64,000 nt of DNA, taken from the NCBI GenBank assembly GCA_016930915.1, contig JAFGFU010000013.1, positions 1 to 64,000 of the forward strand, in the 5' to 3' direction. Made by a program: the position numbers and the translations under genes. The notes beneath the pieces were generated by a model. The model was not told the origin of the DNA and searched no databases. It saw only the letters and a program-made list of their open reading frames with translations. Positions within the stretch are counted from its first letter, which is position 1, and each line of letters begins with the position of its first letter. This DNA is from Campylobacterales bacterium (GTDB lineage: Bacteria; Campylobacterota; Campylobacteria; Campylobacterales; Sulfurospirillaceae). Below are positions 88 to 63,271 of this stretch, one piece after another.

Positions 88-97
88 CACTTTACAT

Positions 98-147
98 GTA
101 ACGATCTTGGTAAGAAGCATATCTTGCCAAGATCGTTACTTTTTTTT
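98..147 (+). terminator. Rho-independent terminator after the partial chemoreceptor gene
   Basis: A near-perfect stem of about 18 bp has arms 98-115 and 122-139, with one G-U pair and a 6-base loop. Seven T residues follow at 141-147. The left arm overlaps a copy of the TTTACATGTAA palindrome at 91-102. Confidence 0.9.
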
Positions 148-218
148 CTACTTTATCACCCATTTACAACGCTCGCATGCTACAATTCCCAAAAGTCTCA
201 TTTTTTACTTCAAGATTC

Positions 219-227
219 TGTTATACT
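219..227 (+). promoter_or_regulatory. Candidate extended -10 promoter for the chemoreceptor gene
   Basis: TG-T-TATACT at 219-227 is an extended -10 element about 85 bases before the start codon at 312. No good -35 is visible, which is common in this phylum. The 5-prime leader would be about 80 nt. Confidence 0.4.
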
Positions 228-311
228 AAAATGTGTGTGGGATTGGATGTTACATTATTTACTTCCTTCCTAATTTTAAGCATTAAAAAACATCTTATAA
301 ATAAGGAATAC

Positions 312-2183
312 ATGATGAATTTCAAAACGAAAGTTACCCTCATCATCTCATTGTTAATTTGTATCAGCCTTATGGCATTTGGCGTTGTAAGCTATATGGA
401 TACAAAGAAAAACAGCATCACTCAAGTTGAGGCAACTCTTAAAATGGCGTCTCGTTCTTTAACAGATTATATTGATCTGTGGGTTGCAAGTAAGAAGAAA
501 AGTCTCTCAAGTTCAGCAAGAATGCTTAGCGATATTGAAAATATGAGCGAAGCCGAGATTAAAGCTATTCTAAAAGAGACCACTCAAGCCTCAGAAAGCC
601 GTGATACCTTTGTGGGTATTGAATCTTCAGGTATTATGATTTATGGTAGCAATACTACACCCAAGGCTGGTTTTGATCCACGAAAACGACCGTGGTACAT
701 TATGGGTAAAACAACAGGCAAATCAGGTATGACTGATATTTATAAAGGCTCAGCAGATCCTATTGATCTCGTAGCGGTCATGGCACCTATTGTTAAAAAT
801 GGGAAAATTATCGGTGTAGTAGCAAGCTCTTTTGAACTCACGCACATTGTAAAAGCAGTGAGCGATATTAATTTCAACGGTGGTTATGGCATGCTCCTCG
901 ATGCTAAGAAAACGATTGTAGCGCACCCAAAACCAACCATGCTGGGCAAAGAGTCAATTTTAGCACCACACCTTAAAGGTGATGCAGAAGGTTTTATAGA
1001 ATACACTTTTGAAGGTAGTGATAAAATTTTTACCTATAAGGCTTCAACGGAAACAAACTGGACACCTGGTATTAGCTTTGATAAAGAGACTGCTTATGCA
1101 TTTTTAGATGCTCAAGTCAAAGAACTTTTTTTCATCGGAATTCTCATGCTTGTTATCTCTGTAGGTATCATGATTTTCTTAATTAAAATGCTTCTTCAAC
1201 CTCTTGATCAGCTTAACAATGTTGTCAAAGACCTCTCTAGTTCTGAAGGTGATCTTCGTCAAAGGCTACAAGCTAATAGCCAAGATGAGTTTGGTCAAGT
1301 CTCTGGAAACATCAACCGATTTATTGAAAAATTACATGAAATTGTCAAAAAATCAAAAGAGATTAGCAATGAAAATGCCTCTATTTCAGAAGAACTTTCC
1401 CGTACTGCCTCTGAAGTTGTTAGAAATGTAGACGCTGAAGCTCGCATTGTCAGTAAAACAAAAGAGAGTGGTATTTCACTCACAAATGCTATTGAAGACT
1501 CTGTTACTAAAGCGACTGCCTCTCAAGAAGCACTACGTCAAACACAACAGGACATTAATCAGGTCAAAGATCAAGCAGAACATTTAGAGCGTACTATGCA
1601 AGAAACGGCTGTCAAAGAACAAAACTTAGCAGAACGCCTTAATACGGTAAGCCATAATGCTAATGAAGTGAAAGAAATTTTAAATATTATCCGAGATATT
1701 GCTGATCAAACCAACCTTCTAGCACTCAATGCCGCTATTGAAGCAGCCCGTGCGGGAGAGCATGGACGTGGATTTGCAGTAGTCGCAGACGAAGTACGAA
1801 AGCTTGCAGAACGTACCCAAAAGAGCTTAGTGGAAATTGATGCAACCATTAATGTTGTCGTTCAATCTATTATGGATGCTAATACAGATATTGCGCATAA
1901 TGCAGCAGAAGTAAACACGCTTGCTTCCATCTCTATTGAACTTCAAAATGGAATGAATGCCATCGATAGTACTATCAAAAGAACCATTGAAGATGCGCAT
2001 GCAACGGTTGATAACTTTGTTCATACCGCAACACAAATAAAAGGAATGGTGGAAGAAATTGAGAAAATCAATGTGATTTCTAAAGAGAACGTGACCAGTA
2101 TTGATAACGTTTCACAAGCCAGTGAACACCTTCACGCTATGACAGAGAATCTTAACAATGAATTAGGAAAATTCAAATCCTAA
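312..2183 (+). CDS. Methyl-accepting chemotaxis protein with double-Cache sensor
   Basis: This is a 623-residue transmembrane chemoreceptor. The start at 312 was chosen because AAGGAA lies just upstream at 303-308 and the product then begins with a signal-anchor helix (about residues 8-28). A periplasmic dCache-type domain (about 30-270) carries the typical DPRKRPWY signature near residue 123. It is followed by a second membrane helix (about 273-293), a HAMP linker and the methyl-accepting helical hairpin. The conserved signalling tip ([20 protein letters not shown] and onward) lies near residues 460-505. dCache receptors commonly bind amino acids or small organic acids; the ligand here is unknown. 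It signals to CheA through CheW at the cytoplasmic tip. It is tandem with a near-identical paralogue just upstream. There is no NWETF-type C-terminal pentapeptide. Confidence 0.93.
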
Positions 2184-2187
2184 TTCA

Positions 2188-2844
2188 TTACACTTCAGCG
2201 AGGAGTTTAATCACCTCGCTGGGTGTTTGTACAATCTGTCTTGCCCCATGAGCTAAAAGCTCATCTTCATCTCTAAACCCCCACAAAGCACCAATAGCAA
2301 TCATGCCAGCACGAGTAGCTGTTTGCATATCAATCATCGTATCACCTAAATAGTAACACGCTTCAGGCTTTACATGTAAAGATTCACAAATCTCAAAAAC
2401 AGCGCTAGGATCAGGTTTTCGTGGCACACCTTCTCGAATGCCAAAAACATAATCAAACGTCCATTGACGCAAATATTTTACTGCACACATTTTTGTAAAA
2501 CTATCGGGTTTATTCGAAAGAATAGCCATTTTAAATCCACGAGTTTGAAGAAAGGTCAGCATTTTGCTCACACCCTCATACAACTTCGTATTTTGATTAA
2601 ACTGCTTCGCATAGTGTGATTCAAATAACGTTACAGCTTTTTGAATTGTCTCTGGATTTTGAGGATTAGAAGCAAAAACATTTTCGAAAAGCTTAAAGAC
2701 GCCCTCACCTACAAAATAACGGTATTTTTGACTCTCTTGTGCTTCAAAGCCCAACTGCGTTAGTGCAAAATTAGCACTAATAGCAATATCTTCGAGTGTA
2801 TCTAAAAGAGTGCCATCTAAATCGAAAATAATGACTTTTTCCAT
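2188..2844 (-). CDS. gph: HAD-family phosphatase, probable phosphoglycolate phosphatase
   Basis: This 218-residue HAD hydrolase has the nucleophile motif FDLDGT at residues 7-12, a LSNKPD motif II and a GDTMIDM motif IV, with the small helical cap typical of Gph/PGP enzymes. The likely reaction is dephosphorylation of 2-phosphoglycolate, but related HAD enzymes act on other sugar phosphates, so substrate is inferred. It is the last gene of the operon running down from nfu and starts 3 bases after tkt stops. A copy of TTTACATGTAAA at 2369-2380 encodes its SLHVK stretch. Confidence 0.8.
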   Translation of the reverse strand: MEKVIIFDLDGTLLDTLEDIAISANFALTQLGFEAQESQKYRYFVGEGVFKLFENVFASNPQNPETIQKAVTLFESHYAKQFNQNTKLYEGVSKMLTFLQTRGFKMAILSNKPDSFTKMCAVKYLRQWTFDYVFGIREGVPRKPDPSAVFEICESLHVKPEACYYLGDTMIDMQTATRAGMIAIGALWGFRDEDELLAHGARQIVQTPSEVIKLLAEV

Positions 2845-4830: not shown

Positions 4831-5691
4831 TCAAACTTTAAAATAATCATTCATAATACCTTGAAGTCTTTTTGCCAAAGGTGCTTCAAGCCTTGTTAAT
4901 TCTTCCTCCAACTCACGCAAGAGCCTCTCTTTTTCCATCAACGCACCCTCTAAGCCTAAAAGATTGACAAAAGAGTTCTTATGACTATCATTTTGGGTAG
5001 GCTTTCCCGCTTCTTCAGGACTCAATGTCGCATCAATAATGTCATCTTGTACTTGAAACAAAAGCCCTAATTTTAATCCAAATTGGTACAGTGTCTCTTG
5101 TGTTGCCTTATCCAATTCACAAATCACAGCTCCCATAAGAAGAGATGCCGCAATAAGTTTGGCTGTTTTATGTACATGTAAAAAGCTTAGTTGTTCCACA
5201 TCCAAACGTTTGTCTTCAAAAAAACAATCAATCGCTTGCCCTAAAACCATACCAAAAATACCAGCATCACCTGAGAGAATAGAAACGAGTTTAATCTTCG
5301 TTTCTGCACTTAGAGGTGCATTAGCAATTCTATAAAACGCATGGGTATTAAGCGCATCACCAACTAACACAGCCGTTGTTTCATCATAGCTTACATGTAA
5401 GGTCGGATGCCCTCTTCTTAACTGCGCATTATCCATGCAAGGAAGATCATCATGAATCAATGAATACGTATGCATCATCTCTAAGCCCAAACTTACATGT
5501 AAAGCATTTTCAAGCAATAAAGGAGAAGAAGATTCAACAACACTTAAGAGCAAAAGTGGGCGAAAACGTTTACCTCCTACATCAAGCATTTCGCTAAGCG
5601 CACGGTTAAAATGAGGGTGGAAACTCTCGACAGTAGGAAGCTCTTTTTTTAAAAAAGCTTCAAATGTTTCAACTAAAATTTTAGAACTCAA
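4831..5691 (-). CDS. ispA: Polyprenyl synthetase, probable farnesyl (geranyl) diphosphate synthase
   Basis: This 286-residue trans-prenyltransferase condenses isopentenyl diphosphate with allylic diphosphates. The first aspartate-rich motif DDLPCMDN lies near residue 80 and the second, QDDIID, near residue 215. The short chain-length region before the first motif and the overall length fit the IspA (C15) class rather than long-chain quinone synthases; exact chain length is inference. Two exact copies of the TTACATGTAA palindrome (5391, 5493) and one variant (5171) fall inside the gene and encode Leu-His-Val each time. It sits between the PDZ protein and tkt genes. Confidence 0.9.
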   Translation of the reverse strand: MSSKILVETFEAFLKKELPTVESFHPHFNRALSEMLDVGGKRFRPLLLLSVVESSSPLLLENALHVSLGLEMMHTYSLIHDDLPCMDNAQLRRGHPTLHVSYDETTAVLVGDALNTHAFYRIANAPLSAETKIKLVSILSGDAGIFGMVLGQAIDCFFEDKRLDVEQLSFLHVHKTAKLIAASLLMGAVICELDKATQETLYQFGLKLGLLFQVQDDIIDATLSPEEAGKPTQNDSHKNSFVNLLGLEGALMEKERLLRELEEELTRLEAPLAKRLQGIMNDYFKV

Positions 5692-7510: not shown

Positions 7511-8824
7511 CTATTTTTGCTTAGCCCATCGTGCAAGAATCTCTTGAACCACAACCCTATCATCAAAAGGATACTTCACCCCTGCAATCTCCTGATAGGT
7601 TTCATCCCCTTTTCCAAGGATAAGCACCACATCATTACCTTTCTGCATTAAAAGCGCTTGCTCAATAGCTTCGTAACGATCTACCTTTACATGTAAAGAT
7701 TCTTTGGCATGCATGCCACTTAAAATTTCATCAATGATGGTCTGAGGATTTTCAGAACGTGGATTGTCACTGGTGACAATAATCTTTTTAGCATAACGCT
7801 CAGCCATGGCTCCCATTTTAGGGCGCTTCGTTCGATCCCTATCGCCTCCTGCTCCAAAAACAACAATCACATCACGCTCTTTCATACTCTCTAAAACTTT
7901 TTCCATTCCATCAGGCGTGTGTGCAAAATCAACAATGACCAATGGCTCTTGTGAAACCACTTGCACACGTCCCTCCACACCACCAAAATGAGAAACTGCT
8001 TCGCAAATCTCTTCCATACTCGCACCCTTTAACATATCCACAGCACTAATAGCGCACAAAAGATTGTAAAGATTGAAAAAACCATGCATTGATGACTCAA
8101 ATTCATAAACTTTCTCAATTTTTGAAACCGCTACACTGATACCTTCTTTTAAAGAATAGGCTAAAATTTTATACGTTGCGGGATGTTCTATGCCATAACT
8201 CATTGCATTCGTACGATTAAAGCGAATATTACGTTCATCTTTATTGATGAGCTTTAAACTTTCATCTTCAAAAAAACGACTCTTAATAGCAATATACTCC
8301 TCAATGCTCTTATGAAAATCTAAATGATCTTGCGTGACATTGGTTAAAATTTTAAGTGCAAAGCTGAGTCCATCAATACGATTTTGAGCAATCGCATGAG
8401 AGCTCACTTCCATGACAAAATACTCACACCCCTCTTCTACTGCTATTTTAAGATTTTTGATGGTTTGTAAAATAGGTGGAGTCGTTAAGCTTTTCTCTTC
8501 AATACGCACATCATTGATAAAACAACCACGTGTGCCTTGTAATCCCACTTTTTTGCCCACATCAAGCAAAATAGAATAAATAGCAGCTGCTGTGGTCGTC
8601 TTCCCATTCGTACCTGTTATACCAATAATTTTAATCTTTCCATCAATCTCTAAAAGTGATAAACACTCTTTGGCAGAAATAATCTTTACGCATCCATTTT
8701 CAATTGCTTTTTGCGCATAAGAGCGATTTTGATCTGTTGAAACAAAAATTGTTGAGGCATCACATTCGGCTGAATTATCCGTTACATGTAAAAATGGAGC
8801 ATGGTTTTCTAATGCTATTTTCAA
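7511..8824 (-). CDS. murE: UDP-MurNAc-tripeptide synthetase (meso-diaminopimelate-adding)
   Basis: Cytoplasmic Mur ligase that adds the third residue to the peptidoglycan stem peptide. At 437 residues it is shorter than the E. coli enzyme (about 495), a shortening mainly in the N-terminal uridine-binding domain. The ATP-binding GTNGKTT motif is at residues 71-77. The DNPRSENP motif near residue 340 is the hallmark of ligases specific for meso-diaminopimelate. Two palindrome copies (7686, 8782) lie within the gene, one near each end, encoding SLHVK and FLHVT. Confidence 0.96.
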   Translation of the reverse strand: MKIALENHAPFLHVTDNSAECDASTIFVSTDQNRSYAQKAIENGCVKIISAKECLSLLEIDGKIKIIGITGTNGKTTTAAAIYSILLDVGKKVGLQGTRGCFINDVRIEEKSLTTPPILQTIKNLKIAVEEGCEYFVMEVSSHAIAQNRIDGLSFALKILTNVTQDHLDFHKSIEEYIAIKSRFFEDESLKLINKDERNIRFNRTNAMSYGIEHPATYKILAYSLKEGISVAVSKIEKVYEFESSMHGFFNLYNLLCAISAVDMLKGASMEEICEAVSHFGGVEGRVQVVSQEPLVIVDFAHTPDGMEKVLESMKERDVIVVFGAGGDRDRTKRPKMGAMAERYAKKIIVTSDNPRSENPQTIIDEILSGMHAKESLHVKVDRYEAIEQALLMQKGNDVVLILGKGDETYQEIAGVKYPFDDRVVVQEILARWAKQK

Positions 8825-13204: not shown

Positions 13205-13963
13205 TCAAGATAGCGACAAAATCTCTGCTTTGCCATCTATGATTGCAACCGTATGCTCATAGTGACTTCCTCTTAACCCATCTGTTGAAACAACAGACCA
13301 CTTATCTTCTAAAATTTTCGGTGTTGCTTCTTTTTGACATATCATTGGTTCAATGCAAAAAACCATACCATTTTTTATTTTAGGACCACTTTTGGGATTA
13401 TTACCTTCTAAATAATTAGGTAATTCTGGCTCTTCATGTGGCTTTCGACCAATGCCATGACCACAAAAGCCTCGTAATGGAACATATCCCTTTGAAAGAA
13501 TAAACTGTTCTATTGCATAACTTAACTCTTTAAAACGCATTTCAACATGAATAATATCTATCGCATAATAAAGAGCATCTTTAGCGCAAGCTATCAATGC
13601 TTCATCTGTTTGCGATATTTTTCCAACACCAACCGTTACAGCAGAATCACCATACCAACCATTAAGCTCTGTACCAATATCCATGCCAACAATATCACCC
13701 TCTTGAAGTTTATAGTCTGTTGGTATACCATGAATAATTACTTCATTCACAGAAGTACAAACACCAGCAGGAAAACCATAAAGACCTTTAAAAGCAGGAC
13801 GAGCACCATGGCTCTGAATGTAAGCTTCACCCATGGCATTTAGCTCTTTCAAACTCATGCCAGGATGAATGTTACATGTAAGATACTCTAATGTTTTGGC
13901 AACAATCCTATTCGCATCAGAAAGCTTTGCAATTTCTTGCGCTTTTTTAATGGTAATTGCCAT
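13205..13963 (-). CDS. map: Methionine aminopeptidase (type I)
   Basis: Removes the initiator methionine from nascent proteins. It has 252 residues with the pita-bread fold metal ligands: [17 protein letters not shown] (two Asp), [12 protein letters not shown] (His) and FCIEPM plus the late YEHTVAI segment (two Glu/His region). The placement secY-map-infA, without adk, is common in Campylobacterota. The only palindrome copy in the ribosomal cluster (13872-13881) lies in this gene and reads Leu-Thr-Cys-Asn. Confidence 0.97.
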
Positions 13964-23842: not shown

Positions 23843-24916
23843 ATGAAAACCCTACAACTTCTCTACGAAGTTTCTTGCAAAAATAGTTTTTTTATTGATC
23901 GTAAAATCACCTTTGAACATGCCAAAGTCATTCTTCATGGTCCTAGAAAAAGTGGAAAAACCCATCTTGTTTTTGACCATCTAAGTCGCTATGAATCGAA
24001 AGAATACCTCTACATAGACCTTGCAGACGAACGCATTGACAAAGCTGAAATTATCGACTATTTAGAGATATTTGTACGTCAGAATTCGCTTCAACTTTTG
24101 GTCATTGAATCTTTTGATTTTTCATTTACATTGCCCCTTGTTCCTGAAATAATTCTAACAACACCCTTTACATGTAAAACCCTTGAAGGCTTTCATAACT
24201 ATGCACTCTATCCTTTGGATTTTGAGGAGTTTTTAGCCTTTGACAAAAAGCACTCCAACATTGAACATCTTTTCAACCTTTACACCAATTATGGTACATT
24301 TCCACAGCACATTCAGCACGGCGAAAGCATTGAGGCAAAAAGTATTCAAGAATTGCTTCACATTCTTCTAAAAGAGAAGTCCCGTTTTTTGGTTTATAAG
24401 CGTTTTTGTGAATTGCAAGGCACGAAAGTATCTCTTTTTCAAATTTACAACTATTTAAAAAGTGTTACAAAAATTTCAAAAGATAAACTCTATGCTATCA
24501 CCTCAGAGTTGGTCGATGAAAAACTTCTTTTTTTTGTAGAAAAATTTAACCAATCCAATGCCAATAAAAAAGTTTTTTTACTTGATTTTACGTTTAAAGA
24601 TGCCCTCACCTTTAAAAAAGATTTTTTAAGACGCTTTGAAAATATGGTTTTTTTAGAACTCATCAAACGGGATAAAAAAATCTTCTATGAAGAGGGGATT
24701 GATTTTTATCTTCCAGAAGAATCGTTAGCTATTTTATGTGTAGGATTTGCAACCACAGAGGCGATTGAGATGCGTTTGCAAAAACTCTTACCCACTTTTT
24801 GGTCTTTACATGTAAAGCGAGTTGAAGTGGTGACGTTAAGCAGTGAAAGTGCTAAAGATATCGAAGGTCTTAGTTTTTCCATTTACCCTTTTTGGGAATG
24901 GGCATTGCAACTCTAG
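23843..24916 (+). CDS. AAA-type ATP-binding protein of unknown function
   Basis: The 357-residue protein has a Walker A at residues 33-40 (GPRKSGKT) and a hydrophobic strand ending VIESFDF that could be Walker B. The C-terminal half resembles the winged-helix/nuclease-like region of the AAA_14/DUF4143 ATPases, but this is from memory and weakly supported. The start at 23843 was chosen over 23819 because AAGGAG precedes it by 7 bases. It lies immediately upstream of rnhB. Two palindrome copies (24167, 24805) fall inside; one reads Phe-Thr-Cys-Lys, the other Leu-His-Val-Lys. The biological role is unknown. Confidence 0.7.
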   Translation: MKTLQLLYEVSCKNSFFIDRKITFEHAKVILHGPRKSGKTHLVFDHLSRYESKEYLYIDLADERIDKAEIIDYLEIFVRQNSLQLLVIESFDFSFTLPLVPEIILTTPFTCKTLEGFHNYALYPLDFEEFLAFDKKHSNIEHLFNLYTNYGTFPQHIQHGESIEAKSIQELLHILLKEKSRFLVYKRFCELQGTKVSLFQIYNYLKSVTKISKDKLYAITSELVDEKLLFFVEKFNQSNANKKVFLLDFTFKDALTFKKDFLRRFENMVFLELIKRDKKIFYEEGIDFYLPEESLAILCVGFATTEAIEMRLQKLLPTFWSLHVKRVEVVTLSSESAKDIEGLSFSIYPFWEWALQL

Positions 24917-37306: not shown

Positions 37307-38819
37307 TTTTCCACTCCTTCAATCGTTTGCGTAGTGTAAATTTTGTACCACCCAGACTTGCAGAATCTTCGAGTGCATACTCCAAACTAAGTCCTTCACA
37401 CAAAAGTTTAACAAAATGAAGCCCAATCCCCGTTCCTTTTTTTTCACGACTTACTTGCGCTGATGAGCTTTTATTGTAAAGTTCAAAAACCTCTTTTTTA
37501 TCCTGAATACCTTTTCCATCATCTTGTATCACGACCTCAATGACATCTTTTTTTGCAAATAAAAAGACTTCGACTACGGTATTTCCATATTTAAGTGCAT
37601 TGGAGAGGATGTTGGAAATAATTTGTTTAAAACGATACTCATCAGTCGTTAAAAAAGGCTCATGCCCATCGTGTTTAAATACAATGCGACGCTTGTGCTC
37701 CAAGGCTAAAGCTCCATGTTTTTCAATCACATCCAAAATCGCCTCTTTGACATTAAACAATGTCATATTATAGTGCAATTTATCGTGACGTAATTTACCT
37801 AAATCTAAAATATTGGTCACATTCTCCAACATAGAAGAAGCGCTTTTATAAATCTGCTCTAAAAGATAAAGCCGTTTTTCATGAGGCACTTCATCAATAT
37901 GAGGCATACGTTTGTATAAATACTGTGCAAAATTCAAAATAGCATTAAGAGGTGTTTTAAGCTCATGGGTAAAAAGAACTAAAAAAGCATCTTTAGCTTC
38001 AGAGAGTTGTTCTTGCTCTAAGGCTTGACGCTTAATTTCATTGGCAAGACGCTCTTTTTCCAAAAAATAGGTAATATCGTGGCGAATTGCCAAATATTGC
38101 AAAATTTTTCCACTTTGTTTCTCTTTAAAAGGAATAATCATCGTCTCTGCCCAAAAATCACTTCCATCTTTATTGCGATTGACAATTTGTGCACGCCACA
38201 CCTTTCCTTGTGTGATAGTTTGCCACATGTCTTCAAATACCTCTGGTGATGTACTAGGATGCTTTAAAACACGGTGATTTCTCCCAATTAACTCCTCAGG
38301 TTGATACCCTGTGACTCGTGTAAAATTATCGTTCACATACGTAATCTTCCCATCCACATCGGTTTGTGAAACAATCGAAAAATCAAGCAAGGTTTGAAAA
38401 TAGTGACGTTCCGCCAAATAAACATCATGCGTAAATTGTTCAACACACTGTGTAAAATGGAACAATGCATTGGCACGCTCTTTTTTCATACTTAAATAAC
38501 GCTCACACTGAAGCGATAAAATTTCATCCAATAAAACCAGATAATCGCTTTGCAAAAATAAAATAATTTTAATTAATGGAAAATTTGCTTTAAGCTCTTT
38601 GAGAACAGGAACATAAAGGGCTTCATTCGAAACGGAGAGTGAACCAAAGATAAGATGAATCTTCTCTTCTTGAACAATTTTAGGAATATAGTGTGGCAAA
38701 ATATTTACATGTAAACTTCCACACACCTTTTTTGCTTCATTTAAAAATGTCGTATCGTACGCAATTTCTCCAATAATCAGCACCGAAACCATGCTTGATT
38801 GATAGAAACAATGCTCCAT
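37299..38819 (-). CDS. Cytoplasmic PAS sensor histidine kinase
   Basis: 506 residues. The N-terminal ~130 residues look like a degenerate receiver fold without the phosphorylation Asp. A PAS domain of the Aer type follows (about 145-255; VNDNFTRVTGYQPEELIG, then NRNKDGSDFWAE), often flavin- or haem-binding. The HisKA domain has its phospho-His in THELKTPLNA, and the HATPase has N and G boxes (SNALKYG, DDGKGI, GTGIGL). There are no membrane segments, so it is soluble, perhaps sensing redox or energy. A palindrome copy at 38704 encodes SLHVN. It ends 8 bases inside the next gene. Confidence 0.88.
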   Translation of the reverse strand: MEHCFYQSSMVSVLIIGEIAYDTTFLNEAKKVCGSLHVNILPHYIPKIVQEEKIHLIFGSLSVSNEALYVPVLKELKANFPLIKIILFLQSDYLVLLDEILSLQCERYLSMKKERANALFHFTQCVEQFTHDVYLAERHYFQTLLDFSIVSQTDVDGKITYVNDNFTRVTGYQPEELIGRNHRVLKHPSTSPEVFEDMWQTITQGKVWRAQIVNRNKDGSDFWAETMIIPFKEKQSGKILQYLAIRHDITYFLEKERLANEIKRQALEQEQLSEAKDAFLVLFTHELKTPLNAILNFAQYLYKRMPHIDEVPHEKRLYLLEQIYKSASSMLENVTNILDLGKLRHDKLHYNMTLFNVKEAILDVIEKHGALALEHKRRIVFKHDGHEPFLTTDEYRFKQIISNILSNALKYGNTVVEVFLFAKKDVIEVVIQDDGKGIQDKKEVFELYNKSSSAQVSREKKGTGIGLHFVKLLCEGLSLEYALEDSASLGGTKFTLRKRLKEWKNG

Positions 38820-42044: not shown

Positions 42045-44086
42045 CAGTATAACTCTTCAACATTTAAAATGAGAGCAATTTCACCATTTCCCATCACGGC
42101 ACCGCCACTAACACCCTCTGTTTTGGACAAAAATGATCCTAAGGTTTTAATAACAACTTGCTGTCTTCCTACCAATTCATCCACCAAAAGCGCAAACTTA
42201 CCTTTGCCATTTTCAATGCACACTAACGTACACTCCCATGGCGCAGGAGAGCTCTCATCGAGTTCTAAAACACGACTGAGACGCACAATGGGAAGCAATT
42301 CAGAACGCAGTTGTACAAACTCTTCTTTACCGCCTGCTATATGCACATTTTGCTCAAGCGGACGGAACGACTCCGTAATGGAAAGCGTTGGAATAATAAA
42401 AATTTTCTCATTAGAGCGTACCAACATGCCATCGATAATGGCTAAGGTTAAAGGAAGCACAATACTAAAAGTTGTACCAATACCCTCTTGCGAACTAATG
42501 TCCACCTTGCCTCGCACCCCTTCAATAGCAGTTCTTACCACGTCCAAACCAACCCCTCGTCCTGAAATATCGCTAATGGTATCGGCGGTTGAAAAACCAG
42601 GTTGCATAATTAGCCCATAAATTTGCGCATCACTAAGCAGTTCATCTTTTTCAATAATCCCACGTTCTAAGGCCTTTTGGTAGACTTTGGCTTTGTTAAT
42701 ACCACGACCATCATCTCTGACCTCAATAATAATACTTCCACCTCGATGATACGCACGCAAGCTCACATTACCCTCTTCGCTTTTGCCTGCTTTTTTTCGC
42801 TCTTCAGGGCTACTTTCAATGCCATGGTCTATGGCATTACGAATAATGTGCACCAGTGGATCAGAGAGTGCTTCAACCATTGTTTTATCAATCTCGGTCT
42901 CTTCTCCCTCTAAGCTTAAATGTATTGGCTTATTGACTTTTTTAGAAGAATCCCGCACCACACGCTTCATCTTCTCAAACGTATCACGAATAGGTACCAT
43001 GCGTAAACCCATCACACGGTTTTGAATCAAACGGGTAATTTTAGAGAGATTTTCAATGGTTTTTGAAACTTCCGCATCTTGAACTGCTTTAATTTTGGCA
43101 TTTTCGCCTAAACAGTTTTGTGCAATCACCAACTCCCCAATCGAATCAAACAGTTCATCCAGTTTTTGTGCATCAATTTTAAGAAAGTTTTTGCTCACCA
43201 CACTGCTTTTAATACTTTTGCTCTCCTCTTTAGAGCTACTTGACTCTGCGATAAGAGGTTCGTCGACTTTAATGCTCTGATTTTCTTTAGAATCACTCCG
43301 TGGCAAAGCAATAGCTTCAACATGAAACTCTTCTTCTTCTAAAAAAGCAAAGACATCTTCGATATCTTCTTTGCCTTGAGTCGTTGCAACATAGAGCGTC
43401 ACGTTTTGAAGACAATTGTGCTCCACATCAAACTCTTCTGACTCTAAAAAGATTGGAGTTTTCCAAAAAGAAGCAAGAATACGACTTACATGTAAAAGAT
43501 TTTTGAAGAAAAGAAAATGATCAAACCCTCGTAAATAGATATCACTATCGAGTGTTAAGAGAACTTTAAAAAGAGCTTCATTTTCATGAAGTTGTGCGAA
43601 AAAAGAGCTCTCCTCTGGCACGTGGGAAGCACAAAAATGCTCATTGTCAAATTCAAGCGTAACATCGTTAACGCCTGCTTCTAAGACAATTTTAGGCTCT
43701 TTCAAATTGACCAATAAGGCTTGAATTTTTTGCAAACAGACCTCATACATAAGAGGCAACTCCGCACGCTCTTCCACATCGCACCCAAGAGTCTCTTTGA
43801 TGACACTCACACTCTCCAAAAAGAGGTCAACATGCTCACTGTTTGGAATAGCTTCTGCGTTTCTAAAAAAATCCAAAACATCTTCAAAATGGTGTACAAA
43901 TTCACCCAAGCGTGAAAAATTAAATGCATTAGCACTCCCTTTAAGGGTGTGAACGCCTCTAAAAATCTCATTTAAAAGCTCTTTATTGCTCGCTTCTTCT
44001 TCATAATTGACAATATCAACATCCATTTTTTCAATGATTTCATTCGCCTCTTCAATGAAAATTTGTCGTAATTTTTCTCTACTCAT
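42044..44086 (-). CDS. cheA: Chemotaxis histidine kinase CheA
   Basis: 680 residues: an HPt domain with phospho-His46 (GVHTLKGSAN), a ~200-residue linker/P2-like region, the P3 dimerisation helix (KLDELFDSIGELVIAQN), the P4 ATPase (HIIRNAIDHGIES, RDDGRGI, GRGVGLDVV) and the P5 CheW-like domain. No receiver is fused, unlike the CheA-REC of Campylobacter. The genes around it supply the complete adaptation set (CheR, CheB, CheD), a CheW and a receptor. A palindrome at 43486 encodes LLHVS. Confidence 0.96.
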   Translation of the reverse strand: MSREKLRQIFIEEANEIIEKMDVDIVNYEEEASNKELLNEIFRGVHTLKGSANAFNFSRLGEFVHHFEDVLDFFRNAEAIPNSEHVDLFLESVSVIKETLGCDVEERAELPLMYEVCLQKIQALLVNLKEPKIVLEAGVNDVTLEFDNEHFCASHVPEESSFFAQLHENEALFKVLLTLDSDIYLRGFDHFLFFKNLLHVSRILASFWKTPIFLESEEFDVEHNCLQNVTLYVATTQGKEDIEDVFAFLEEEEFHVEAIALPRSDSKENQSIKVDEPLIAESSSSKEESKSIKSSVVSKNFLKIDAQKLDELFDSIGELVIAQNCLGENAKIKAVQDAEVSKTIENLSKITRLIQNRVMGLRMVPIRDTFEKMKRVVRDSSKKVNKPIHLSLEGEETEIDKTMVEALSDPLVHIIRNAIDHGIESSPEERKKAGKSEEGNVSLRAYHRGGSIIIEVRDDGRGINKAKVYQKALERGIIEKDELLSDAQIYGLIMQPGFSTADTISDISGRGVGLDVVRTAIEGVRGKVDISSQEGIGTTFSIVLPLTLAIIDGMLVRSNEKIFIIPTLSITESFRPLEQNVHIAGGKEEFVQLRSELLPIVRLSRVLELDESSPAPWECTLVCIENGKGKFALLVDELVGRQQVVIKTLGSFLSKTEGVSGGAVMGNGEIALILNVEELY

Positions 44087-44393: not shown

Positions 44394-44423
44394 TTTACAT
44401 GTAAAAAGGTTTTTACATGTAAA
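44394..44423. repeat. Tandem pair of TTTACATGTAAA palindromes
   Basis: Two exact 12-base palindromes at 44394-44405 and 44412-44423 lie 6 bases apart, centres 18 bases apart, between the MCP gene and the STAS-like gene. It is the only head-to-tail pair found in the window. The second lies 7 bases after the MCP stop (44430). Confidence 0.85.
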
Positions 44424-47439: not shown

Positions 47440-47967
47440 ATGCGGTTACATATCATGCCTCATTGTATTATTATTCGTGTCGCTGAAAATTCGCCATTCT
47501 CTTTACATGTAAAGACATTTTTGAGTGAAAATCTAAGCCGTTCGTTCTGGGTGAATGAGACGCTTATTAATTTTCATACCTCTGTTGAAGCTAAAAAAAG
47601 ACAAGCATTTTTGACCAAACTTTACTACACCTGTGCCCAAATATCACGCACGCACAATACCTCTTTTTTGAAAAAACTGCTTTTATCCTCTCATAAACCC
47701 ATTAAACTCATGTATACCAAACACACAACACTAAAACTTATACCAAACACGCAAAACGAAGACGCCTACCGCCTTCTTAAAGCACACCCTGATGAGAGTT
47801 TACATACCATTCGAAAAAAATACCTCCAACTCGCCAAACAATTTCACCCAGATACCAAAAGAGATGAAAACCCTTTAATATCTGAGCGCAACACTAAAAT
47901 TTTCCAAAACATTCAAGAGGCTTATTCCACCATTAAAGCAGAAAAAATAAAACAAAATGTGGCATAA
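47440..47967 (+). CDS. J-domain protein
   Basis: 175 residues, ending with a J domain (about 108-170) that carries the HPD motif (FHPDTK) essential for stimulating Hsp70 ATPase. The first ~100 residues do not match known J-protein regions. It is preceded by AAGGAG and an AT-rich -10-like region. Palindrome 47502 encodes SLHVK. Divergent from the che operon. Confidence 0.85.
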   Translation: MRLHIMPHCIIIRVAENSPFSLHVKTFLSENLSRSFWVNETLINFHTSVEAKKRQAFLTKLYYTCAQISRTHNTSFLKKLLLSSHKPIKLMYTKHTTLKLIPNTQNEDAYRLLKAHPDESLHTIRKKYLQLAKQFHPDTKRDENPLISERNTKIFQNIQEAYSTIKAEKIKQNVA

Positions 47968-50038: not shown

Positions 50039-50078
50039 CTTTTGCCCTCCTCTTCTATCTTTACATGTAAACTATTAT

Positions 50079-50151
50079 CTAGCTCATGCAACTTGTACTT
50101 CTTCACCACTGTTTGCCCCTTTGTGTTGAATTTCATTTCTTACATGTAAAG
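50079..50151 (-). repeat. 73-bp repeat, copy A
   Basis: About 81 percent identical (59 of 73 positions by eye) to 54467-54539. It lies just upstream of the first membrane-protein gene and contains a TTACATGTAA copy at 50140-50149. Read on the minus strand in the RTX frame it encodes RNEIQHKGANSGEEVQVA; differences from copy B fall only at first and third codon positions in that frame. Confidence 0.75.
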
Positions 50152-51664
50152 ATTTCATTGTGTGGAAATGTTTACATGTAAGAAGATTATTTGTACAATT
50201 GTTATGATCTAATAATGATTTTATCTTGAACATGTCACAGTTTGTGTCACAGAAACAAACATCCCCATACGTTCCCACCACTTCACCTAAAGCATTCACA
50301 CTGTAACTAATGCCATTGGTACCAAGCGCTGTTTTAAAGGTTGTGTATGAAAGCAGTGTGTCATCGAAACTCTCTAAAGTGTCTAAACCATAACGATAGA
50401 CCATGGTGGAGAGTAGTAAGGTAGAGAGTGTGTCAGCTGGTGTGGTGGTAAGTGTGGTTTGAAGTTTGGTGATGAGTTCATCTTTACTTAAAGATTCACC
50501 GTACAGTGCATCACTGAGGAATTCTATCATTTGGGAGTATTGAAGCTCTTTATAGGCATCATTCATCGCTACACTGGCTTCGGTTCCTATGACATCAGAG
50601 GTTGTGACACTATCAGCTACCATACTAAAGCTTTTTCCTGCAAAGGCTTCTAAGATAGCAACATCTCTGGCATAGGCATAGACTTCTTTGACTTTAATGG
50701 GTGTTGCATTGATATATCCGTAAGGATGGTTAAGGATGTATTGTTCTCCTCTAGTTGTGGTGGCACTGATGGTATCGGTACCCGTCCAACGTGCAACCAT
50801 ATCTTTAAACGCACTGCTAAAATTTGAGAAACTCATGGAAGAGGCATTGTTTAAAAGGTTGGTGACTTTGGCTTCTAAAACACTATCATCATTCATCGCA
50901 TCTCTTAAATCTTTGACTCTGCCACTGCCTTCGATGGTGGGAAGTGAAGCAACGCTTTCTTTGATGGGTGTGGTGTAGTCATAGGTGGTATCGGATTTAT
51001 CTTGGTAAAACCAGACATCATTGATGGTTTTTGTCTCACCATTTTGGGTAAAAGAAGAACTATCTGAGATTTGGTTATAAGCTTCAGAGGTTGAAGTCTC
51101 TGTAGCATTGAGGTTAATGGTGGTGATGTTTAACTCTTCGAGTGTTTTAAGTTCATCTGTTGTGCTAATGCCATCACTGTTCGTGTCCATCCATACTTTG
51201 AGATGAGAGTAGATGCTGTCTTTTGCATCAATGACATTATCGTGATTGAGATCGTATTGGCTCAAAGCTTCAAAGCCATCTTTGGCATTGGTTCCATTGG
51301 CGAGTTTGGTGTTGTTTCCAAAGAGTTCTGAGCCATTGGTGACTTTGCCATCATTGTTTAGATCTAGGGTTAAGAGTCCATCACTGCTTTCAGTCCAACT
51401 GGTTCGCTCACGAAAGCCATCTCCGTCCATATCGAAGTAGGTTTGTGTAGCATATAAAGGCATAGATGTCATACCATCATTATCTAAGTCTAAAACCAAG
51501 GGAGAGGAGAAATCCTCTAAGGTGACACCCGTACCTGTATGGTGGGTAGCGATAGTTGTGCCACCTGTTATTGAAGGTAAAATTGTTTCACTGGTGGCAA
51601 CAGGGGTTTCTATCGTTAATGTAGCGCCGCTATCGGCTACAAATTGAAAGCCATTACTGGTTAA
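50084..51664 (-). pseudogene. C-terminal part of the RTX lipase, separated by a frameshift
   Basis: The frame is open from the T5 run at 51663-51667 to the stop at 50084. It reads FLTSNGFQFVADSGATLTIE at the junction and continues into SSPLVLDLDNDG, the central region typical of large RTX exoproteins. Several calcium-binding DxDxDG loops follow (YFDMDGDGF, LDLNNDGKV, MDTNSDGIS). The last ~60 residues are cysteine-rich and contain two palindrome copies. A TTG at 51499 could start a separate 471-residue product, but the 54 open codons before it and the perfect join to the lipase show it is the rest of one gene. Confidence 0.7.
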
Positions 51665-54370: not shown

Positions 54371-54466
54371 TGGCTCTCTCCTTGTTTTATCTTTACATGT
54401 AAAACTATTTCTAGTTTTTCTCTCCAACATTTCAACATACCGCCTCCTTATGTTTGTTATGTTTTT

Positions 54467-55405: not shown

Positions 55406-55735
55406 TTTTATTTTCTTTCATGTAACCTTGTTTTTTTCAAAGGCGGTTATTGTTTATGTCCTACGGACATATTTTACATGTAAAGGCGATATGGGAACTA
55501 AAGTAATGTATAAAAAGCAATGATCACACGTTGAGGAAATGTTAGAGAAAATCTATTCAATACGCCCCCGTTTTGAGTTACGCACATATATCGGATTGTC
55601 TAATGGGGTGCTATTCTAGTCTTTATAGCCTTAAATTTATAACTCAAAGTATTACTCAGTAACTTTCACGCAAAGTGCAGAACTGGGAAGTTTTTGACCA
55701 GAAAATAAAAAATAAGATGCGGGATTTTGAAGTAT
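55406..55735. other. Gene-free spacer between the small gene and tRNA-Sec
   Basis: About 330 bases without a convincing gene. It contains one TTTACATGTAAA copy (55473-55484). A minus-strand reading that ends SKTSQFCTLRESY appears opposite the tRNA and has no ribosome-binding site; I regard it as non-coding. Confidence 0.5.
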
Positions 55736-55835: not shown

Positions 55836-55848
55836 CAAAAGGAAAATA

Positions 55849-57193: not shown

Positions 57194-59040
57194 GTTACAT
57201 TTCCTAGTATAATGGAGAAACAAGCCCCATCGTTTTTATTGAAAGCGGTAATTTTTCCACCCATTTTATCTTCAATAATCAGTTTACTCATATAAAGCCC
57301 AATCCCATGCCCTTGTTTTTTGGTTGTAAAGTAAGCATCAAAAAGATGAGACAGTTTCTCTTCTTTGATGCCTCCTGCATTATCACATATTTCAATGATA
57401 ACGTTTTGTGCATGGTTGTAGATGACAATAGAAATCATACCTCGTTTTAGCTTTTTTGCTTCTCGTTGTTCAATAATTTGGTCTTTGGCATTATTGACAA
57501 TATTTAAGAGCGTTTGCATGAATTCATTTTTATAGCCACGAACGGAGAGGTTGGTGGCATGGCTAATATCTACTGTGACATCAATATAATTGTACTTGAT
57601 CGTATGGTTAATTATCTTTAGCATCGTTTCAATCGCATCATTAATGTTAAAAACTGTTTTAGTGGTTGAGGGCATAATAAAGGCTTGAAAACTGTTAATG
57701 GTGTCTGTCATGTAGTGGACTTGCACCATAATGTCATGGACGAATTGATTGTTTTGTTCTTCTGACTGTTCTGTGGAGTTGTAAAAGTGATCTTGTGCTA
57801 TGGTAGCAATCTCAACCAAAGGGTTTTTCCATTGATGGGCAATTGAAGAGAATACTTCACCAATTTCAGCCAATTTGGATTGTTGAATAATAAACTGTTG
57901 GTGTTTGTTTTTTTGCAACTCCACCGCACGCAACTCTTTTTCAGAGCGAATGCGCATATAAATATTATGAAAGAGCCCTAAAATAAGAAAGACGAGAAAA
58001 GGAGAAATAAGAAAGACCGCATCAATAAGTTTTCGATGACGATCAAAAAAGGTTTCAGGCGCATTAATAAGCTCAAATTCTGGGACGGTAGGATTGGGAT
58101 AGATGTCAAATTGTTTAATTTTTTGAAGATCAAACTGGTACCAATACTCATCAAATGTCTTTACATGTAAAGGGTGAATTTTTTCATCTAACACATCTAA
58201 AATCATCTCACCTGTTGCCATACCAAGTTTTTGCACAGGAACCAGCTTGCCACCAAACGCTCCTTTTCCAATAAAAAGTGTATCGGTAATAAAAACGGGC
58301 AGAGCACTTTTTTGAATCATATTGGCAATTTGGTTATTTTTATAGAGATTTCCATAGCGGTCATTGTAAAAACGAATGTAAAAAATTGCCTCTTCTTTAT
58401 TAGGTGTAGAAAAGCGTTTTTCTAATTCTTCAAGGGTTGCTTCACGAATGTATTCGATCTCAAGTCTATCATGAAACTCTTGCATCGCTTCACGAATAAA
58501 CGGTTCACTATCATCCCCATTGGCACTGGCATCGTTGATGATGGTTATTTTTTTAAGCTGTGGTATCATCTTCGCCATTAAAGGAATTGTATCGCCAATA
58601 GCTCTTTTTTCCATAACCCCATAAATGCGGTCATCTAAGCCTTTGGCATGAATTTCTTTCACATCAAACTGCTCTAAGCCTGTAAATAAAATAGGCTCAT
58701 CGGTGAAAAGCTCATGATAATACTCAATTAAAAAATCATAAGCAAATTTATCGACAGCCACAATAAGATCATGTTTTTGATTTTTGAGTTGAAGTTTATA
58801 GAGTTCTCGCAGTTTCTCATAATACGCTTTGGAATTGATGCGCTTAGAATCCATGTATAAAATATTCATGGTAATTTCAGGATGATTGTAAAAAACATTT
58901 TCTATACCATGTAAAACGTCATCACTCCATTGAAAGCCTTTATGATAGGAGTTAATGATGAGGATTTTTTTATCATGTGCCCATGCAAAAGTAGTACCCA
59001 TGAAAATAAAAACAGTTAAATATAAGAGTATTTTTTTCAT
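57190..59040 (-). CDS. Sensor histidine kinase with periplasmic binding-protein-like domain
   Basis: 616 residues: signal/anchor at the N-terminus, a ~300-residue ABC-substrate-binding-type domain (KILIINSYHKGFQWSDD, TGLEQF, GVMEKRAIGDT), one membrane helix (about 337-360), then the kinase core. The phospho-His lies in SIAHQWKNPL near residue 400. The ATPase boxes are NNAKD, DNAGGI and GHGIGLY. Small-molecule sensing in the periplasm is expected; ligand unknown. The palindrome at 58160 encodes PLHVK. An extended -10 lies upstream. Confidence 0.92.
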   Translation of the reverse strand: MKKILLYLTVFIFMGTTFAWAHDKKILIINSYHKGFQWSDDVLHGIENVFYNHPEITMNILYMDSKRINSKAYYEKLRELYKLQLKNQKHDLIVAVDKFAYDFLIEYYHELFTDEPILFTGLEQFDVKEIHAKGLDDRIYGVMEKRAIGDTIPLMAKMIPQLKKITIINDASANGDDSEPFIREAMQEFHDRLEIEYIREATLEELEKRFSTPNKEEAIFYIRFYNDRYGNLYKNNQIANMIQKSALPVFITDTLFIGKGAFGGKLVPVQKLGMATGEMILDVLDEKIHPLHVKTFDEYWYQFDLQKIKQFDIYPNPTVPEFELINAPETFFDRHRKLIDAVFLISPFLVFLILGLFHNIYMRIRSEKELRAVELQKNKHQQFIIQQSKLAEIGEVFSSIAHQWKNPLVEIATIAQDHFYNSTEQSEEQNNQFVHDIMVQVHYMTDTINSFQAFIMPSTTKTVFNINDAIETMLKIINHTIKYNYIDVTVDISHATNLSVRGYKNEFMQTLLNIVNNAKDQIIEQREAKKLKRGMISIVIYNHAQNVIIEICDNAGGIKEEKLSHLFDAYFTTKKQGHGIGLYMSKLIIEDKMGGKITAFNKNDGACFSIILGNVT

Positions 59041-60193: not shown

Positions 60194-60229
60194 TTTACAT
60201 GTAAAGGCATTCGGCTCAAAAGAGCCGAA
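60194..60229 (-). terminator. Hairpin between dcuA and ansB
   Basis: TTCGGCTC-AAAA-GAGCCGAA gives an 8-bp stem (60210-60217 with 60222-60229). It lies 20 bases after the dcuA stop and is followed on the minus strand by a palindrome copy (60194-60205). The T tail is weak, so read-through into ansB is possible. Confidence 0.6.
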
Positions 60230-61551: not shown

Positions 61552-61581
61552 GGTAACTCCTTGTACTAAGTTTATGAACTC

Positions 61582-61674
61582 CTCTAATAGCTCAAAAAGC
61601 GATTAGAGCAATTGGGTGCCACAAAAGAGCGGTAAAAGGAAGAAGGTGTGTGAGCACCGCTTCTTCTGTGGCAC
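61582..61674 (-). promoter_or_regulatory. Two stem-loops between aspA and dcuA
   Basis: First on the minus strand comes a long imperfect stem (61674-61656 with 61633-61616; GTGCCACA arms perfect). Then comes a ~10-bp stem with one mismatch (61582-61591 with 61599-61608, CTCTAAT arms). Neither is followed by a T run. They could stabilise or process a bicistronic aspA-dcuA mRNA, or attenuate dcuA. Confidence 0.55.
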
Positions 61675-61695
61675 GGCAAAAGGCTAAAAGGCTAT

Positions 61696-63102
61696 TTATT
61701 TTTTATCGTATGTACGAGGTTTGATCATATTTTCTGGTTTGATAATATCATCAAGCTCATCTTTAGCCAAAAGACCACGAGCAAGAACGATGTCATACAC
61801 TGAACCACCTGTTTCTAGCGCTTCTTTTGCGACTGAAGTTGAGTTCTCATAACCGATAAATGGATTAAGAGCAGTAACAAGTCCAATGCTGTTAAGAACG
61901 AGTGATTTACATCTCTCAGGATTTGCTGTGATGCCATCAACACATGTATACGCTAAGGTCTCAAACGCATTTCTCATCATATTGATAGAGCTAAAAAGGT
62001 TATACGCAATCACTGGTTCAAATACGTTAAGTTGAAGCTGACCACCCTCGCACGCAAGTGTTACGGCGATGTCTGTACCAATCACTTGGAAACATACTTG
62101 GTTCACAACCTCAGGGATAACAGGATTGACTTTACCTGGCATAATAGAGCTACCTGGTTGCATTGCAGGAAGGTTGATCTCACCAAAACCTGTTCTAGGA
62201 CCTGAGCTTAACAAACGAAGGTCGTTACAAATTTTTGACATTTTGGTTGCTACACGTTTAAGAACACCAGAGATTTGTACATACGCACCTGTATCTTGTG
62301 TTGCTTCAACAAGATCACCCGCAGTTACAAATGGACGTCCTGTTACTTCTTGTAATTTTGCTTCAACCATTTTTGAATAATCAGGGTGTGAATTAATACC
62401 TGTACCAATCGCTGTTGCACCTAAGTTCATCTCACGAACGAGTTGTTGTGCTTCACTAACACGTTGGATATCTTCACCAATCATAACCGCATAGGTTCTG
62501 AACTCTTGCTCTAACGTCATAGGAACCGCATCTTGAAGTTGTGTACGTCCCATTTTAATGATGTCTTTAAACTCGCTTGCTTTGTTTGCAAATGAGCCTT
62601 TGATGATTTTCATAGACTCAGTAAGTTCACCTAATTTTTCATAAAGTGCTACACGAAGCGCTGTTGGGTAAGCATCATTGGTAGATTGAGAAAGGTTAAC
62701 ATCATTGTTTGGGTGTAAAAATTTGTATTCACCTTTTTGGTGACCCATTTTTTCCAAACCAATGTTTGCGATAACTTCATTGGCATTCATATTGGTTGAA
62801 GTACCTGCTCCACCTTGGAACATGTCTACAACAAATTGGTCATGGTATTTGCCTGCAATAATCTCATCACATGCTTCACAAATCACATTTTTTTTAGCTT
62901 CCGCAAGAAGTCCTAATTCGAAGTTTGCTAAAGCTGCTGCTTTTTTTACTTTTGCTAGCGATACAATAAACGTAGGGAAGCTTGAAAGTTTAATACCTGT
63001 AATATGAAAGTTCTCAGCCGCACGTGCCGTTTGAACGCCATAATAACATTCGTTAGATATTTCTTTATCACCGATTAAATCGTGTTCCATTCTGGTTGAC
63101 AT
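61696..63102 (-). CDS. aspA: Aspartate ammonia-lyase
   Basis: 468 residues, full length. Converts L-aspartate to fumarate and ammonia. The fumarase/aspartase superfamily signature GSSIMPGKVNPV (catalytic Ser in the flexible loop) is present. Other conserved parts are GGAGTSTNMNANEV and NDAYPTALR. Fumarate made here can feed fumarate reductase. A second, very similar gene starts beyond the right edge. Confidence 0.97.
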   Translation of the reverse strand: MSTRMEHDLIGDKEISNECYYGVQTARAAENFHITGIKLSSFPTFIVSLAKVKKAAALANFELGLLAEAKKNVICEACDEIIAGKYHDQFVVDMFQGGAGTSTNMNANEVIANIGLEKMGHQKGEYKFLHPNNDVNLSQSTNDAYPTALRVALYEKLGELTESMKIIKGSFANKASEFKDIIKMGRTQLQDAVPMTLEQEFRTYAVMIGEDIQRVSEAQQLVREMNLGATAIGTGINSHPDYSKMVEAKLQEVTGRPFVTAGDLVEATQDTGAYVQISGVLKRVATKMSKICNDLRLLSSGPRTGFGEINLPAMQPGSSIMPGKVNPVIPEVVNQVCFQVIGTDIAVTLACEGGQLQLNVFEPVIAYNLFSSINMMRNAFETLAYTCVDGITANPERCKSLVLNSIGLVTALNPFIGYENSTSVAKEALETGGSVYDIVLARGLLAKDELDDIIKPENMIKPRTYDKK

Positions 63103-63240
63103 TTTGTCTCCTTAAAAAGTTAAACATGGTGGAAGTTTAAACCTCTAAAGGGATTTGAAAATGACTTTTTGGATTTTTTTTTAAAAAAAGCTTGAAAGAA
63201 GAGAATTAATTAAAATATATAAAATTTTAAGGAAAAATGT

Positions 63241-63271
63241 TTTACATGTAAAGAGGGAAGTATCCCTCTTT
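63241..63271 (-). terminator. Terminator of the second aspA gene
   Basis: An 8-bp stem AAAGAGGG/CCCTCTTT (63250-63257 and 63264-63271), loop 6 bases, just after the aspA2 stop. A TTTACATGTAAA copy follows on the minus strand (63241-63252) and overlaps the arm. Confidence 0.65.

Follow-up and report, generated by a model that had tools for sequence, protein, structure and literature searches.

A ten-base palindrome iterated through a Sulfurospirillum-like genome, its dialects among the Campylobacterales, and a possible role as a methylated label for DNA uptake

What keeps a ten-base palindrome at about one copy per 2 kb in a bacterial genome, inside unrelated genes as well as between them? The question is raised by a stretch of 64,000 nucleotides from a Campylobacterales bacterium (contig JAFGFU010000013.1, positions 1 to 64,000; hereafter the window), in which an initial annotation had reported 31 copies of TTACATGTAA. 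We see an even chance that TTACATGTAA is a methylated self-label for DNA uptake, kept in place by methylation-linked drive. A D12-class enzyme would methylate ACATGT, the inner palindrome, at its central adenine, and the uptake machinery would prefer DNA with the methylated site in a favored outer context. Marked fragments would enter and recombine more often, by which sites would be created and restored to their present density. Species groups would acquire their own dialects of the word, and loss of the methyltransferase would leave the sites to erode. Methylation of TTACATGTAA by this enzyme, the base modified and uptake as the driving force are what we infer; the word itself, its conservation and the distribution of the enzyme are described below.

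The word in the window and in the host genome

An exact count confirmed the 31 copies of TTACATGTAA, the first at 92-101 and the last at 63242-63251. The annotation had estimated that well under one should occur by chance, and 100 dinucleotide shuffles of the window indeed held a mean of 0.11 and a maximum of 2. Among the 10-base palindromes of the window TTACATGTAA has a z score of 56, compared with 5 for the runner-up. The 12-mer TTTACATGTAAA, which the annotation had placed in its title, occurs only 19 times; the 31-copy unit is its 10-base core. TACATGTAA is found 63 times on the two strands together, and because 62 of these belong to the 31 palindromes the 10-mer is a sharp unit. In 84 kb of the host genome the flanks show a graded preference for T (63/82 half-sites) and then C (42/82), with little constraint past about two bases. 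The genome-wide count that the annotation had called for was far from expectation: the whole 2.23-Mb genome holds 1127 copies and only 6 of the reversed-word control, an enrichment of about 200-fold. Outside the full word, ACATGT is not depleted relative to other CATG words. TTACATGTAA is therefore over-represented genome-wide, as highly iterated palindromes (HIP) are, and it is a dispersed, enriched short word conserved as DNA, as uptake sequences are. It is a perfect 10-base palindrome and not an asymmetric, oriented word.

Sites were placed on a gene model hand-picked from the open reading frames (ORFs) of the window. As the annotation had stated, most copies sit inside genes (24/31 wholly genic, 7/31 in spacers; Table 1) and usually read Leu-His-Val (18 of the 24 genic copies); five others read x-Thr-Cys and one overlaps the end of aroC. 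Spacer enrichment is modest (non-coding share 7.6% of the window, binomial P 0.008). The gene labels of the annotation fared unevenly, with murE, rnhB and aroC above the curated NCBIfam cut-offs and the ispA-type synthase and cheA below theirs.

A 10-14 base palindrome with graded outer preference, strong positional conservation and some excess in spacers could be the binding site of a chromosome-organizing or segregation protein (a nucleoid protein, or one like Noc or MatP), with the methyltransferase as modulator or passenger. We think this unlikely, because spacing in the 64-kb window is Poisson-like (coefficient of variation 0.97) and because the word is nearly lost in some relatives, shifts in dialect and is co-distributed with a methylase, as shown below. 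The window includes a 10.3-kb stretch without copies, from 13.9 to 24.2 kb (P 0.13, not significant alone). A ribosomal-region effect was considered for this gap and dropped; the gap is not significant, and the ribosomal call came from gene layout and one SecY match.

Copy number, and nothing further, would suit a small mobile repeat or an assembly artefact. This explanation is already contradicted and has practically no chance of being correct: constraint ends about two bases past the 10-mer, copies lie in frame inside conserved genes, and counts are also high in the single-contig genomes G007, G013, G014, G015 and G019 (G numbers denote genomes of our set, L numbers loci and f numbers families).

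Table 1. Positions of TTACATGTAA in the window and the gene or spacer that holds each copy; four-letter strings give the amino acids read through the site.
Feature	Position	Context
TTACATGTAA copy	92..101	spacer
TTACATGTAA copy	2370..2379	ORF 2188-2844(-), LHVK
TTACATGTAA copy	5391..5400	ispA-type synthase ORF 4831-5691(-), LHVS
TTACATGTAA copy	5493..5502	ispA-type synthase ORF 4831-5691(-), LHVS
TTACATGTAA copy	7687..7696	murE 7511-8824(-), LHVK
TTACATGTAA copy	8782..8791	murE 7511-8824(-), LHVT
TTACATGTAA copy	13872..13881	ORF 13205-13963(-), LTCN
TTACATGTAA copy	24168..24177	ORF 23819-24916(+), FTCK
TTACATGTAA copy	24806..24815	ORF 23819-24916(+), LHVK
TTACATGTAA copy	24922..24931	rnhB 24892-25494(+), LHVR
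TTACATGTAA copy	25402..25411	rnhB 24892-25494(+), LHVK
TTACATGTAA copy	28028..28037	spans last codons and stop of aroC 28028-29104(-)
TTACATGTAA copy	28657..28666	aroC 28028-29104(-), LHVK
TTACATGTAA copy	30461..30470	ORF 30190-31266(-), weak TPR-type matches, LTCK
TTACATGTAA copy	33029..33038	ORF 32927-33925(+), LHVN
TTACATGTAA copy	33722..33731	ORF 32927-33925(+), LHVN
TTACATGTAA copy	35842..35851	GGDEF ORF 34972-35979(+), LHVT
TTACATGTAA copy	36667..36676	ORF 36020-37306(-), LHVK
TTACATGTAA copy	38705..38714	sensor-kinase-like ORF 37299-38819(-), LHVN
TTACATGTAA copy	43486..43495	cheA-like ORF 42044-44086(-), LHVS
TTACATGTAA copy	44395..44404	spacer
TTACATGTAA copy	44413..44422	spacer, 18 bases past the copy at 44395
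TTACATGTAA copy	47503..47512	ORF 47440-47967(+), LHVK
TTACATGTAA copy	50061..50070	spacer
TTACATGTAA copy	50140..50149	ORF 50084-51499(-), LHVR
TTACATGTAA copy	50172..50181	ORF 50084-51499(-), LTCK
TTACATGTAA copy	54393..54402	ORF 53546-54430(-), FTCK
TTACATGTAA copy	55474..55483	spacer
TTACATGTAA copy	58161..58170	sensor-kinase-like ORF 57190-59040(-), LHVK
TTACATGTAA copy	60195..60204	spacer
TTACATGTAA copy	63242..63251	spacer

Conservation and erosion of sites among relatives

The host genome groups with Sulfurospirillum, its nearest named matches in the aroC region including isolates such as S. cavolei UCH003, with 411 copies of TTACATGTAA, and S. diekertiae JPD-1, with 1211. Across the 23 other genus genomes that were searched, the count runs from 49 to 1496. 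In 398 genomes of the order, more than 15 copies, a threshold set after inspection of the table, were found in 37/44 of the host's family, 9/45 of family f17 and 0/309 others. A metagenome-assembled genome titled Sulfurimonas (G071), outside the 398, has 216.

The initial annotation had proposed selection on DNA rather than on protein, to be checked against orthologues. Orthologous alignments of ten motif-rich species pairs (72-83% DNA identity) showed 100/135 site views identical, in contrast to 362/2147 composition-matched 10-mers and 29106/225088 of all 10-mers; views count each pair from both sides and pairs share genomes, so that they are not independent. In the nine pairs below 80% identity the figures are 92/127 for site views and 332/2028 for matched 10-mers, and the weakest motif-rich pair is the host with G011 (2/7 views). 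Counted as distinct aligned places, 9/14 are shared by the window and SCADC, 7/10 by S. diekertiae and SCADC, and 7/12 by the window and UBA2217. The result was opposite for CTSoil_042, a relative without the enzyme (72-81% identity). None of 34 site views is identical, against 188/1185 matched 10-mers, and no place is shared with the window (0/10, 76% identity) or SCADC (0/11, 81%). Ungapped counterpart sites in CTSoil_042 carry 1 to 6 changes each. The high identity of sites among motif-rich species and its absence in the enzyme-less relative support selection on DNA.

An aroC tree, whose outgroup failed to form one side, places CTSoil_042 within a supported motif-rich group, with the rich genomes G006, G031 and G025 outside that group. 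Because it is nested among motif-rich species, the motif-poverty of CTSoil_042 looks like secondary loss.

In S. cavolei and UBA4058 several counterparts retain ACATGT with the outer bases drifting, and 12/44 views are identical. One-mismatch words were summed over five groups that have both the enzyme and TTACATGTAA, leaving out G036, which has another outer base, and the non-carrier groups. Mismatches at the inner six positions show no excess (24 vs 27.7 expected), and those at the outer two positions are in large excess (103 vs 10.4). Deviations thus spare the core, as in HIP-type words. For the uptake words of Haemophilus and Neisseria, over-representation is reported to drop 80- to 90-fold from 0 to 1 mismatch, with selection on DNA (PMC1939737). 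Since these words show the same steep fall, the scarcity of decayed forms in strict species is not on its own evidence against an uptake word.

A solitary D12-class methyltransferase

Two adenine-methylase families (PF01555 and PF02086) were scanned across 37 genomes. The N6_N4 methylases (PF01555) were rejected as partner, being present in 11/23 genus genomes and not tracking the motif. A solitary D12-class adenine methyltransferase found with PF02086 largely follows it. The host enzyme has 323 amino acids and is encoded on the window's contig but outside the window (G000:C23:169433-170401(-)); its DPPY motif is invariant among 22 homologues. A protein search found the enzyme in 17/24 genus genomes, and a profile search confirmed the absences tested. 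The enzyme of G005 is split in two pieces, and a weak partial match to a 686-amino-acid protein in G008 was not counted. Among genus genomes at least 90% complete, those with the enzyme hold 152-505 copies/Mb (n=14) and those without 19-389 (n=5; P 0.001), with rounded genome sizes and with G017 counted as lacking it, which works against the uptake-label proposal. In f17, more than 15 copies occur in 6/10 genomes with a close homologue (E below 1e-80) and in 3/35 others (P 0.0016), the others including four genomes with distant homologues (G268, G337, G365 and G381; 2 to 11 copies).

The enzyme gene adjoins a transglutaminase gene in four rich species (G000, G013, G011 and G007), and this neighbor was used to examine the seven genus genomes without detected enzyme (G017, G001, G018, G020, G008, G010 and G009). 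The rich exceptions G017 and G001 also lack the transglutaminase gene, and in G018 a contig end falls 238 bases from that gene, on the side where the enzyme would lie. Because the locus is absent or cut in these assemblies, the three absences are probably assembly gaps. The other four have the transglutaminase and no enzyme, with 238 (G020), 49 (G008), 168 (G010) and 412 (G009) copies of the word; CTSoil_042, with its eroded sites, is the one of these four that was aligned. In the motif-poor G020, G008 and G010 two other small genes stand where the enzyme would be, between the transglutaminase and kinase genes (L437, L439, L440), one of them coding for a small Lys-rich protein and the other CheY-like. 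The transglutaminase gene of G020 is 90% identical to those of enzyme-bearing G011 and G007. An in-place swap in S. cavolei, suggested by a shared kinase neighbor, was dropped because the two kinases share only about 40% identity in the part that aligns.

We wondered whether the word could be the trace of an ordinary restriction-modification system, in which the excess would be incidental and the methylase would shield the word from its cognate nuclease. PADLOC models class the enzyme as a type II or orphan methyltransferase. In G357 a gene with a weak PD-(D/E)XK nuclease match (L258:10376-11518(-)) overlaps the methylase homologue, which may be part of a restriction system there. An excess of some restriction sites in their hosts is reported, for example of CCGG in Helicobacter, but the same source describes restriction sites as mostly avoided (PMC4687349), not enriched about 200-fold. 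No nuclease was found among the seven neighbors scanned (the transglutaminase, a MerT-like protein just under cut-off, a kinase, a regulator, an EF-hand protein, a RhuM-like protein and a DEAD helicase), the rest of the 20-kb stretch and of the genome not having been searched for one. A restriction trace is accordingly highly improbable, and an adenine methylase with no nuclease among the neighbors scanned is the arrangement expected of a CtsM-type enzyme.

A PDB sequence search with the enzyme gave no match at E 0.001. Its confidently predicted structure (predicted local distance difference test score 90) matched class I methyltransferases in general. Among the structure matches listed no DNA adenine methylase was prominent, and no family was drawn from them. 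A comparison of ACATGT with TCATGA enzymes for a separating residue gave one variable column only.

Two S. diekertiae plasmids, pSDCE1 (L433) and pSDIE1 (L434), carry 4 copies of TTACATGTAA each (0.09 and 0.08 expected). This is below chromosomal density, at which about 17 per plasmid would be expected, yet well above chance. A relaxed dialect, TACATGTA, is strongly enriched on the same plasmids (14 and 13 copies; 0.75 and 0.69 expected). Both also have a gene for a D12 methylase, which lies intact next to an IS21 element in pSDCE1 (1692-2732) and is in pieces in pSDIE1 (6885-7829). A link with Sulfurospirillum phages was tried through the 14-mer CTTTACATGTAAAG, which occurs in at least 120 viral stretches, and abandoned. 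Four or more copies of TTACATGTAA were present in only 3/120 of those listed. The one of the three that was inspected (L330) reads as an unrelated phage, from which nothing was concluded about Sulfurospirillum phages.

Dialects and comparison with known systems

Relatives use other palindromes. In sampled stretches the S. cavolei dialect is TKACATGTMA, that of G036 is CTACATGTAG, and TCATGA is the dialect of G138, G200 and G239. TATCATGATA is enriched in both G089 and G026, the enrichment being stronger in G089 (50 vs 0.42 expected) than in G026 (8 vs 0.37). GCATGC is enriched in three f14 genomes (45, 33 and 29 vs 12.3, 10.7 and 10.4 expected). Degenerate RAATTY is enriched in two f11 genomes, G202 and G357 (445 vs 270 and 520 vs 278 expected), where it is the top degenerate palindrome (z 10.7 and 14.6); CAATTG is strongly depleted in both (2 vs 20.1 and 5 vs 18.8). 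What these words have in common is a six-base palindrome centered on AT, N[C/A]AT[G/T]N. Of 54 sampled genomes that carry the enzyme family, 31 have a palindrome of this type; G196 and G235 were counted as carriers without one, though counts over the whole genome give 48 and 31 copies, and some samples were small (G083, G091). An enzyme clade that crosses families (G024 with G353, G216, G235 and G196) has TTACATGTAA as its common word. TATCATGATA is common to G089 and G026, and the f7 genomes with TCATGA carry enzymes of several clades, in a quick tree with many weak forks. Among loci of the order of at least 12 kb, 10/52 have some palindrome, in six cases TTACATGTAA (one of them, L028, from the host's family).

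The closest look-alike is HIP1 of cyanobacteria, the word GCGATCGC at about one per 1 kb (Elhai 2015, PMC4390886). The same source describes HIP1 as a highly iterated palindrome that has orphan methylases as partners and is replaced by alternate palindromes in relatives. Its deviations fall mostly at outer positions around the methylase core, and some genomes hold the word without the enzyme. TTACATGTAA and its putative partner enzyme resemble HIP1 in their iteration, alternate palindromes, outer deviations and enzyme-less holders of the word. A second HIP1-type system with no part in uptake is possible, if doubtful. Its core would be methylated, and methylation-directed repair or conversion would restore the extended palindrome as a by-product or strand mark. 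Elhai's model requires mismatch repair with a nicking partner. TTACATGTAA is not HIP1 itself but a different word from the Campylobacterota, AT-rich, ten bases long and built on CATG, in a genome whose nearest named matches are Sulfurospirillum; its putative partner is a D12-class enzyme, and site erosion is seen together with a locus that lacks the enzyme gene. To our knowledge the Campylobacterota lack MutS1 and MutL, which counts against a HIP1-type route.

The second comparison is with Campylobacter jejuni, which belongs to the same order as the host and whose methylase CtsM we take to be D12-like as well. CtsM is reported to methylate RAATTY, a six-base palindrome with central AT, at the central A (PMC8627207), and Campylobacter to take up only RAATTY-methylated DNA (PMC8468864, PMC10046745). 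The homologues in G202 and G357, the two relatives enriched in RAATTY itself, are 48-51% identical to the host enzyme. RAATTY is short and very common (28,482 occurrences in a single C. coli genome, PMC8627207), whereas TTACATGTAA is ten bases long and about 200-fold enriched. The host does not appear to share the RAATTY specificity: AAATTT is at expectation in a 20-kb sample (20 vs 21.9), and the three highest-ranking degenerate words in the 84 kb do not include RAATTY. Uptake sequences of Haemophilus and Neisseria resemble TTACATGTAA in their density, near one per 1-2 kb, and in having species dialects. They differ in being asymmetric and recognized without methylation, whereas TTACATGTAA is fully palindromic and goes with a methylase. 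The annotation had named uptake sequences, HIP1 and methylation sites as comparisons; these were the right ones, and the evidence favors a methylation-linked combination of them.

A wider proposal for the Campylobacterales, to which we give slightly less than an even chance, is that enriched word and methyl mark, both known as means of distinguishing kin from foreign DNA, form one kin-DNA recognition system. A mobile family of solitary D12 methylases would mark six-base palindromes with central AT (RAATTY, ACATGT, TCATGA, GCATGC). Long, rare words would be driven to more than 1000 copies by uptake bias, with species dialects, and enzyme loss would lead to genome-wide decay.

Several results weigh against the uptake-label proposal. 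The enzyme is not sufficient, as 23/54 sampled carriers show no N[C/A]AT[G/T]N palindrome, and 7/12 sampled non-carriers have one. Nor is it strictly necessary, because some genomes without it hold the word: G009 within the genus and, outside it, G027 (567 copies), G166 (340), G320 (194), G387 (87), G321 (22) and G376 (19). A further rich genome, G025 (265 copies), has only a 93-residue remnant of the enzyme. These holders of the word may be recent losers of the enzyme or use another one. The fit of dialect to enzyme tree is weak (5 changes vs 6.6 shuffled, reached in 51/1000 label shuffles, and in 214/1000 after thinning); here G000 stood for the main clade, G130, G213 and G357 were left out, and the thinned set was also without G138, G021 and G216. 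Words of other forms are enriched in the samples as well, among them AATATT or RATATY in G026, GATATC or RATATY in G089, YGATCR in G131, RTCGAY in G073, TTCACGTGAA in G211, and RCCGGY in the three f14 genomes with GCATGC, in G130 above its CATG word. Two competence genes were searched and found, ComEC in 57/60 genomes and DprA in 8/8. They are present as an uptake system requires, but they cannot separate rich from poor genomes because motif-poor ones have them too, and ComEC was discarded as a discriminator. The likeness to CtsM is one of described features, and uptake enters as an inference. Finally, we know of no uptake sequence that is a palindrome.

In the open-licence literature covered, part of it in excerpt and with subscription journals and preprints outside its scope, no description of TTACATGTAA was found. 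Searches of that literature on Sulfurospirillum palindromes, transformation, methylomes and competence and on Campylobacterota uptake words showed nothing similar among the listed titles and abstracts, and the 12-mer text returned only three unrelated papers. Cyanobacteria already provide iterated palindromes with a methylase; what appears new here is the word, the phylum, the class of enzyme, the set of dialects and the evidence of loss and erosion. The origin of HIP1 and the drivers of uptake words are long-open questions, and the TTACATGTAA system has features that help with both. Some close relatives have the partner enzyme and others lack it, sites can be matched one by one between species, and a single order uses several dialects, one of which is the word of an uptake system already proven to depend on methylation. 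The chain from methylase to mark, uptake and genome-wide enrichment thereby becomes directly testable in environmental Sulfurospirillum strains.

Other palindromes are in excess elsewhere in the order: CGATCG in L061 (WTBY01000017; 16 vs 0.61 expected), ATCGAT in L088 (JQIT01000003; 37 vs 10.9) and GCGCGC in L060 (JADGDM010000005; 12 vs 1.8). These are perhaps further iterated-word systems. In the G017 and G009 samples AGATCT is nearly absent (1 vs 24 expected) and the ratio of observed to expected GATC is 0.25, which suggests a GATC restriction system. The window also contains a selenocysteine tRNA gene at 55736-55836 (-).

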